Below, piece by piece: positions 20,712 through 39,910 of a stretch of 64,000 bases of DNA. Numbering within the stretch: the stretch's first letter is position 1; the number at the start of each line of letters is the position of its first letter. Location of the stretch: NCBI GenBank assembly GCA_001595385.3, contig LVEI03000001.1:1207501-1271500 (forward strand). Direction: 5' to 3'. Under the pieces are notes generated by a model. That model was given only the letters and a program-made list of their open reading frames with translations, ran no database searches and had not been told where the DNA came from. This stretch comes from Deltaproteobacteria bacterium GWC2_55_46 (GTDB lineage: Bacteria > Desulfobacterota > GWC2-55-46). A program made the position numbers and the translations under genes.

Positions 20712-20800
20712 ATTCTTCCCTGGAGGAGCTCCTCCGGAGATTAGTAATTATAACACAAGAAGGTGGAAAAACAAAAATCCGGGCGAAGTTAAAAAAATGG

Positions 20801-20887
20801 CGGAGAGGGAGGGATTTGAACCCTCGGTGCCGTTTCCGACACAGCAGTTTTCGAGACTGCCACCTTCAGCCTCTCGGTCACCTCTCC
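20801..20887 (-). tRNA. tRNA-Ser(CGA)
   Basis: An 87-nt class II tRNA with acceptor stem GGAGAGG / CCTCTCC, discriminator G, a T-arm GAGGGTTCAAATCCCTC, a long variable arm (TGTCGGAAACGGCA region) and anticodon loop CTCGAAA, giving anticodon CGA for UCG codons. No CCA is encoded. Confidence 0.93.
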
Positions 20888-20919: not shown

Positions 20920-21009
<90 letters not shown>

Positions 21010-21047: not shown

Positions 21048-21225
21048 GGATGAGGGAGGGATTATCTCGTCCATCCCTGGACTCGACCCTTCCGCTTCGC
21101 TCCAGGGCTTTGCACCTTCGGTGCAAATTCAATTTTCGCTATCCTGCGAAAATTGCCGAACCCTCGATACGTTTCCGTATATACGATTTCCAGTCGTACT
21201 CCTTCGGCCTCTCGGGCACCTCTCC
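21048..21225 (-). pseudogene. Interrupted tRNA-Ser(GGA) copy
   Basis: Bases 21157-21225 repeat nucleotides 1-69 of the neighbouring tRNA-Ser(GGA) with one substitution, including anticodon GGA. The T-loop then breaks after GGTTCG, and 93 foreign bases follow. The remaining 3' half (AATCCCTC plus acceptor strand) resumes at 21063. The 3' acceptor strand has one extra A, so the stem would carry a bulge. It is most simply a tRNA gene inactivated by insertion of a hairpin element. A spliced or processed tRNA is possible but unproven. Confidence 0.75.
21064..21156 (-). repeat. 93-bp triple-hairpin insertion in tRNA T-loop
   Basis: The insert is almost entirely self-complementary. It contains a 10-bp perfect stem (21130-21139 / 21146-21155, 6-nt loop), an 8-bp perfect stem (21109-21116 / 21120-21127, 3-nt loop) and a 7-bp stem (21075-21081 / 21101-21107). 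It has no reading frame of note and is far too small for a group I or II intron. It resembles a palindromic mobile repeat. Confidence 0.6.
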
Positions 21226-36174: not shown

Positions 36175-36714
36175 TTACTCTGCCCCTATGCCCTTGAGCT
36201 CGATAACGTCTCCGCCCCAATCTGGCGGATATACGCCGTCAACGACATATTTTCGAAATGATGAATGTTCCCATTCTATGGGCGAACCAACAATCCCGTG
36301 TCTCACCGGGTTGTAATGTATATATTCGACATGCGCTCGAAAATCGGCCTCGTCTCTTATCTTGTGCTCCCAAAAACGCCTTTGCCAGATCGTATCTTCC
36401 CTTCGCGTCACCCGTGACATGTTCGGCGCCGGGGTATCGATGCGCCCTTTCACCCTTTTTGTGAACCCCTTTTTGACCAAAGCCCATCTGATCGAAAAAT
36501 CCGTGTCGCCTTCCGGAAGCTCCCATATCGCATGAATATGGTCGGGGAGGATGGCCCATGCCTTGATCGCAAAGGGCCTGCTTTGCTGAACCTCCAAGAT
36601 CGATTCTTCCAGAGCCTTTATCGAATCACCAAGGCACAGGATGGGTTGCCGCATGTAAGTCACAACAGTAAAGAAATAAGTTCTTCCATCCCGCGGCCTT
36701 CTATAATTGGACAT
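36175..36714 (-). CDS. REP-associated tyrosine transposase (RAYT)
   Basis: The 179-residue Y1-type HUH transposase has a YFFTVVTYMRQ start, the metal-binding HxH in LPDHIHAIWELP (about residues 57-60) and the catalytic Tyr in HVEYIHYNPVRHG. RAYTs are single-copy, domesticated relatives of the IS200/IS605 transposases and process REP palindromes. Perfect 24-bp inverted repeats flank the gene at 36149 and 36742. The length is normal and the motifs are intact, so it may be active. Confidence 0.9.
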   Translation of the reverse strand: MSNYRRPRDGRTYFFTVVTYMRQPILCLGDSIKALEESILEVQQSRPFAIKAWAILPDHIHAIWELPEGDTDFSIRWALVKKGFTKRVKGRIDTPAPNMSRVTRREDTIWQRRFWEHKIRDEADFRAHVEYIHYNPVRHGIVGSPIEWEHSSFRKYVVDGVYPPDWGGDVIELKGIGAE

Positions 36715-39253: not shown

Positions 39254-39353
39254 CCTACCGTGATTCCATCGTTTTTACCATTTTGAGGCCCTGAAAAGCA
39301 CCCGCTTCAGCGTGGACTCGCGTTCTCAGATGTAAAAAATATGTAAAACTCTA

Positions 39354-39382
39354 TTGACAATCTTGAGCGAATCATATACTAT
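39354..39382 (+). promoter_or_regulatory. Cold-shock gene promoter
   Basis: TTGACA (39354-39359) is followed 17 bp later by TACTAT (39377-39382), with TATACT overlapping it at 15 bp spacing. A leader of about 95 nt precedes the ATG, as is usual for cspA-type genes. Confidence 0.75.
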
Positions 39383-39485
39383 GTGATAGATAAGTTGGTT
39401 GCAGGTATTGTTCTGAAGGAAGCTTTGTCTTTTTGCAGTGCAGGACCTCAAAGACTTATGACTCTTAGAAAGGAGGTCTTCTCAA

Positions 39486-39686
39486 ATGGCAAAAGGCAAA
39501 GTGAAATGGTTCAACGAATCCAAGGGTTTCGGGTTCATTGAAAGGGAGTCCGGCGAGGACGTTTTCGTCCACTACACTTCCATCCAGGGCGACGGTTTCA
39601 AGACCCTGAAGGAAGGTCAGGAAGTCGAATTCGACATAGCCAAGGACGCAAAGGGTTCCAAAGCGGTGAACGTAGTTCCCCAATAA
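39486..39686 (+). CDS. cspA: CspA-family cold-shock protein
   Basis: The 66-residue protein has the RNP1 and RNP2 motifs ([16 protein letters not shown]) and the [10 protein letters not shown] start of the CSD family. It binds single-stranded RNA and DNA and melts RNA structure. A strong AAGGAGG ribosome binding site precedes the ATG, and the gene has its own promoter and terminator. Confidence 0.96.
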
Positions 39687-39700
39687 GGACCAAAAAGCAA

Positions 39701-39726
39701 AAAGCCCCCACGCAAGTGGGGGCTTT
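39701..39726 (+). terminator. Terminator of the cold-shock gene
   Basis: An 11-bp stem (AAAGCCCCCAC / GTGGGGGCTTT) with a GCAA tetraloop is followed by a run of Ts. It begins 15 bp after the stop codon. Confidence 0.93.
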
Positions 39727-39910
39727 TTTTATTTCCGGGCCTGCCAGAATTATCGCCTATCTTAAAACTCCTTGAAAAACAAATTGTTATTCTACAACTG
39801 CCCGCCTTCCAGGCAACGAGCGTATCTGCTTGATTTCCCTCCCTTAACGGAAGTGGGTCGACTGGTGGTCTTTTTTTCGCCTGGAATGAGCAGGTCCAAC
39901 AACTTTCCTC

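Follow-up and report, generated by a model that had tools for sequence, protein, structure and literature searches.

The 93-nt insert that splits a tRNA-Ser(GGA) copy in the window (the whole 64,000-nt stretch of DNA analysed) is very probably a small, non-autonomous palindromic mobile repeat, akin to Rickettsia palindromic elements (RPE) and REP sequences, with the T-loop as a recurrent site and the split tRNA left as a pseudogene. The element belongs to a family that is apparently new to description and that appears to have a preference for tRNA T-loops.

The interrupted tRNA-Ser(GGA) locus

The interrupted gene (21225-21048, minus strand) stands at the head of a tRNA cluster. It is followed on the same strand by an intact tRNA-Ser(GGA) (20922..21009; ARAGORN, and Rfam tRNA at 55.8 bits), an intact tRNA-Ser(CGA) (20798..20887; ARAGORN and Rfam tRNA) and, last in order, the SRP RNA (20694-20596). 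The preliminary description of a tRNA-Ser(GGA) copy split in the T-loop by 93 nt is borne out; the 5' part, insert and 3' part can all be located on the minus strand. The 5' part (21156..21225) comprises the acceptor 5' strand, the D, anticodon and variable arms and the T-arm 5' strand, ending in TTCG(G). Its body is 99% identical to the intact copy across 71 nt, with a single G-to-A substitution, in agreement with the one substitution first noted, and the spacing to the intact gene, given as 40 bp, measures 38 nt. The 3' part (21048..21062, CTCATCCTTTA) consists of the T-stem 3' strand and a decayed acceptor 3' strand without CCA. This strand reads CTCATCC, with the one added A that had been reported, and the discriminator and CCA are gone, TTTA being found where the intact gene has GCCA. 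The gene therefore lacks both the paired acceptor stem and the CCA end of a functional tRNA.

The sister species deltaproteobacterium GWA2_55_10 (G003; contig MGPL01000123) carries an orthologous interrupted tRNA-Ser, whose 5' body differs from that of the window copy at one or two positions and whose junction reads TTCGA|CAATTTT. This ortholog defines the element proper as CAATTTT...GAGATA (21155-21063), and its ends are also set by about 120 copies and by empty sites. An A flanks both sides of the insertion point, so placement between G57 and A58, as originally proposed, is equivalent to placement after A58. Because its junction has TTCGA, the replacement of A58 by G in the window genome is a later change. 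In a search of the window, the insert matches the covariance model of the family (CM R1) at 86.5 bits (E 2e-17); it has a folding z-score of -6.2, with none of 200 shuffles equally stable. The interrupted tRNA-Ser(GGA) is most likely a pseudogene containing one copy of the element. As an intact tRNA-Ser(GGA) adjoins it, this duplicate was free to decay, with loss of the CCA and mispairing of the acceptor.

Structure of the element

Copies of the element are approximately 80-95 bp in size. Three stems had been described in the insert, of which the 10-bp and 8-bp stems stand. The first is hairpin H1 (CAATTTTCGC-AGGATA-GCGAAAATTG; 21130..21155, minus strand, as are all parts of the element); in its helix 1, 99.8% of cells are paired and four of six pairs have two-sided changes. 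The second is H2 (TTTGCACC-GAA-GGTGCAAA; 21109..21127), supported by folding and alignment, which varies freely among copies. The 7-bp CCCTGGA/TCCAGGG stem is not the conserved third structure; it results from a lineage-specific addition of 12 nt, TGGAGCGAAGCG (21093-21104), which in the alignment is confined to the window copy and its ortholog in G003. The structure kept family-wide in this H3 region (21063..21107) is a CCC..GGG stem with a GTCCA-GGGA-TGGAC hairpin (helices 2 and 3), together with TCGA and the right end, GAGATA. In the alignment, TCGAG and GAGATA vary no more than the GGA loops do.

Among 80 distinct rows, standard pairs occupy 97.8% of paired cells. Two-sided changes are found in 77 cells, compared with 13 after shuffling and 1-13 in slid controls. 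The alignment was fitted to the covariance model, so that these counts are biased towards the structure, but RNAalifold on an unfitted alignment gives the same helices. All of the covariation lies in helix 1 (H1) and helix 3 (GTCCA..TGGAC). The element thus has the conserved hairpins of a palindromic mobile repeat.

Distribution in the family, order and phylum

An initial search of relatives matched the insert region at many places. CM R1, built from 16 aligned copies, identifies about 130 copies in the family; they are spread over 18 of its 30 genomes, and a single genome has as many as 23. Across the order, copies occur in 22 of 48 genomes. Weak matches (L209/L210, and the lowest ones in L212 and L176) were discarded as chance. 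The search of relatives suggested in the preliminary description has yielded the insert both in other tRNAs and elsewhere, and the element is multi-copy and dispersed, as is a palindromic mobile repeat. Seven other families of the phylum carry weaker but clear relatives. Copies from beyond the order have the consensus GACAATTCCGCAGGAYAGCGGAATTGGAC...CCCGAAGGGCGAGGCCATGGATGGCCGAGTCA, with the H1 loop, CCCGAAGGGCGAG and the H3 loop unchanged.

The window's own genome contains two copies, the second (G000:C1:2094037-2094127) lying within the end of a MITE. Neither a BLAST search of that genome with the whole insert nor a search with a 25-mer core allowing three mismatches found a second copy, and its detection required the covariance model. 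The exact core of the element is absent from viral contigs, and the element matches no Rfam family. Rfam matches to 'plastid' families were rejected as antisense tRNA artefacts. Elsewhere in the window, Rfam reports a cspA thermoregulator at 39325-39730 (plus strand; 84.7 bits, cut-off 78).

Insertion sites and evidence of mobility

The context was read for 120 copies. A MITE-like repeat is host to 70 of them, tRNA T-arms to 30 and a GTTACA repeat to 12; the other eight are in different contexts. In the order, the T-arm hosts are Ser(GGA), Glu(TTC), Glu(CTC), Asn(GTT), Pro(GGG), Arg(TCT), Arg(ACG) and an fMet-like tRNA, and outside it there is a ninth, Arg(TCG), the tRNA being identified from an intact neighbour or by visual reading of the 3' end. 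The T-loops of many tRNAs are therefore a recurrent site of the element. At MITE ends the contexts are GTCATTCTGAGCGAAGCGA^AGAATCTCG or GTCATTGCGAG..CGA^AGCAATCTC. The 12 copies in the GTTACA repeat all belong to one genus (g6).

The element is placed after GA, usually CGA; this triplet is found 5' of the element in 85 of the 120 copies, and the T-loop site is TTCGA^ATCC. On inspection of the sequences, the insertion point in both tRNAs and MITEs falls within a hairpin loop, towards its 3' side, the hairpin arms at the MITE site being ATTCT..AGAAT or ATTGC..GCAAT. Outside the order, a relative of the element (L251; G174:C13) is inserted in frame, spanning 27 codons, in the gene of a gamma-glutamylcyclotransferase (GGACT); both halves of this gene match the GGACT domain.

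Past insertion of the element is evident from comparison of sites. In the GTTACA repeat, empty GCGCGTAGA^GCCCTG (L221 and L241) corresponds to filled GCGCGTAGA[element]GCCCTG (L122 and L144), a clean insertion in which any duplication amounts to one ambiguous A at most. In addition, an identical 89 nt is found between MITE flanks in L111 (G040) and between GTTACA flanks in L113 (G019), so that the same element occurs in unrelated surroundings. G019 contains 57 copies of the GTTACA repeat, TGTTACAGAGAGCGGCGGCAGCCGCGTTACATGG, some with the element and most empty. These findings support the proposal of a mobile palindrome directed at a conserved site in tRNAs. It is not a classical DDE-type MITE, as its CAATT and AGATA ends are not inverted repeats and target duplication does not exceed the 1-bp A.

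One observation does not follow from neutral insertion. Wherever the 3' flank is preserved, every T-arm copy has the sense orientation, even though the palindrome TTCGAA would admit either; a mobile repeat inserting neutrally would not be expected to do so.

Tail units behind tRNAs

Most T-arm copies leave the full tRNA uninterrupted and are placed 3' of the intact tRNA and its terminator. Such a tail unit (for example, L046, L047, L063, L064, L149, L193 and L197) contains, in order, a partly inverted T-arm (GGGATGAGAACCC), GGGTTCGA, the element, a tRNA 3' end, often including CCA, and a terminator-like hairpin. Units of like layout recur across families, and another class has them as a tandem behind tRNA-Arg(TCG) (L261). 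Two tandem units behind one tRNA are found in L047 (G007:C3) and L261 (G068), with the tRNA 3' end repeated in each and, in L047, a terminator also. The inverted arm and the survival of the 3' ends are not fully accounted for by simple insertion followed by decay. Possible origins are att-like recombination, template switching at hairpins, or selection for an RNA.

Some tail units (L037, L050 and L200) are preceded by extra CAGGRNG hairpins with CAGGAT/CAGGGA loops, giving a CsrB-like appearance. L036 (G003:C123) has a T-arm tail of another kind, which lacks the present element. Here, between the intact tRNA-Ser(GGA) and the SRP RNA and apparently in the tRNA-Ser(CGA) slot, several hairpins with CATGGATG/CAGGGA loops form an element that terminates in the 3' end, CCA included, of a tRNA-Ser.

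Selection for an RNA could in principle account for these units. Judged from sequence, they might be a conserved structured RNA with a tRNA-like CCA end whose loops titrate CsrA, an ancient functional class of the phylum in which CsrA-binding hairpins replace the T-loop and of which the dispersed mobile copies are offshoots; we regard this as unlikely. The tail unit would be transcribed with the tRNA, and its acceptor/CCA end would allow processing by RNase P and the CCA machinery. An A(N)GGA motif, the CsrA site, is present in the H1 loop of 108 of 120 copies and in the H3 region of 106. CsrA is encoded in 22 of the 30 family genomes, including all strong carriers of the element except G018, and the element is absent from seven of the eight genomes without CsrA. 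The occurrence of same-tRNA tail units in different families and another class (L193, L195, L197, L198 and L261), the uniform sense orientation and the additional CAGGRNG hairpins upstream of some copies also fit a CsrA-titrating RNA. However, most copies in the family lie in MITEs and other repeats, and one relative lies in a coding gene. Pairing between upstream and downstream flanks beyond the T-stem is not significantly better than in cross-paired controls (-17.4 versus -15.8 kcal/mol); the flanks of the single units L063, L047, L046 and L196 pair very well. The co-occurrence with CsrA may reflect phylogeny, since the carrier genera are related, and TCGAG and GAGATA are conserved equally with the GGA loops; it is these two points that keep our estimate of a CsrA-titrating role low.

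Alternatively, the tail units could be remnants of tyrosine-recombinase integration at the T-loop, with att-like repeats of the tRNA 3' end that are sometimes in tandem. The expected arrangement is seen in L046, L047, L064, L149 and L261, where the segment from the T-loop to the 3' end is repeated behind an intact tRNA, and also in the tandem units of L046, L047 and L261. Such an origin is nevertheless very unlikely, as the element also occurs with clean ends outside tRNAs, in the MITE, the GTTACA repeat and the coding gene. Moreover, the window copy and L036 split an otherwise complete tRNA without regenerating it, and the units contain no ORF within the stretches examined.

The near-identity of the 5' body between two species, with one or two differences, might suggest a functional split, permuted or intron-bearing tRNA, and a processed or permuted-type tRNA was the less favoured proposal of the preliminary description. 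There is, however, no 3' half upstream, the acceptor 3' strand is decayed and mispaired by its extra A, the discriminator and CCA are missing while the neighbouring tRNAs encode CCA, and the identical type of insert is found outside tRNAs; the near-identical intact gene adjoining makes gene conversion another possible source of the conservation. A functional tRNA here is highly improbable. An isolated case of tRNA decay after chance insertion of a palindrome, the outcome foreseen had the insert occurred nowhere else and at first sight compatible with the failure of BLAST and the core pattern to find a second copy, is refuted by the covariance-model copy in the same genome, the dispersed copies in relatives and the ortholog in G003, and has practically no likelihood.

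Mobiliser and proposed mechanism

The search for a transposase linked none to the element, which counts against the mobile-repeat interpretation. The window encodes a REP-associated tyrosine transposase (RAYT; 36175-36714, minus strand; NF047646, 182 bits; PDB 4er8, E 5e-40), which has its own GTAG-type REP on both sides (GTAGGGTGCGC-TGT-GCGCACC). RAYTs of the family likewise have GTAG-type REP flanks (GTAGGGTGCGC..GCGCACC), and no CM R1 copies lie near the window RAYT or its relatives. The window RAYT was rejected as the mobiliser on account of the different REPs at its flanks. The foot of the element is CGA, not the GTAG/GGAG of a repeat that flanks a cognate RAYT. A search of six genomes, in draft assemblies and with a mismatch limit, found no longer version with an ORF between split ends.

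A single-strand mechanism of the HUH/Y1 type is our tentative best guess, on account of the fixed 5' target, the clean insertion, the hairpins at both ends and the CGA foot. A trans-acting transposase would recognize the H1 and H3 hairpins and cleave beside the CGA foot, and the element would be joined behind a CGA-like target. In the window genome, the element entered a duplicate tRNA-Ser(GGA), and the interrupted gene could then decay.

Comparison with known repeats

The RPE are the nearest in behaviour, being small, palindromic and non-autonomous. They occupy intergenic DNA, are found in frame in protein genes and are present in two RNA genes, tmRNA and M1 RNA (PMC2229807). By that published description the present element is distinct: it has 80-95 bp with two conserved short hairpins where RPE have one long stem, it occurs in another phylum, its main RNA-gene target is the T-loop of many tRNAs, and it is not known to be related to RPE in sequence. 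REP/BIME sequences share hairpins with a conserved short 5' foot (in the element, CGA at H1 and H3), and the genomes do encode RAYTs; however, the element lacks a GTAG/GGAG foot, whereas the family RAYTs are flanked by GTAG-type REPs, and no REPs in T-loops were found reported in the literature examined. PATE/MITE derivatives of IS200/IS605 are similar in their subterminal hairpins at both ends, fixed 5' target and lack of target duplication, but no related full-length IS was found and no guide sequence identified for the element. YPAL/RU-2 of Yersinia, of 168 bp, has internal inverted repeats, target duplications and sites beside dyad symmetry (PMC2229807); it resembles the element in its inverted repeats and dyad-symmetry targets, and differs in size, duplications and sequence. 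Sponge RNAs of the CsrB/RsmZ type likewise have several hairpins with A(N)GGA in the loop, whereas the element is a dispersed repeat with only two or three such hairpins per copy and no Rfam match. The word tRNA does not appear in a review of prokaryotic MITEs (PMC10969869), and a search of the open-licence literature for palindromic elements in tRNA T-loops found nothing relevant.

Significance

Earlier known small palindromic repeats lie in intergenic DNA, within protein genes and, in a few cases, within RNA genes, and phages and islands often use the T-loop for attachment. What is apparently new here is a repeat family that enters the T-loops of many different tRNAs, for which no earlier report was found in the open-licence literature. 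The element would be a different kind of user of the T-loop hairpin, beside phages and islands. The presence of filled and empty sites within a few genomes makes its target choice and mechanism testable. In addition, the conserved units behind tRNAs raise the question of whether some copies have turned into functional RNAs. If the CsrA-titrating role were true, the tail units would be sponge RNAs carried along by tRNA genes.
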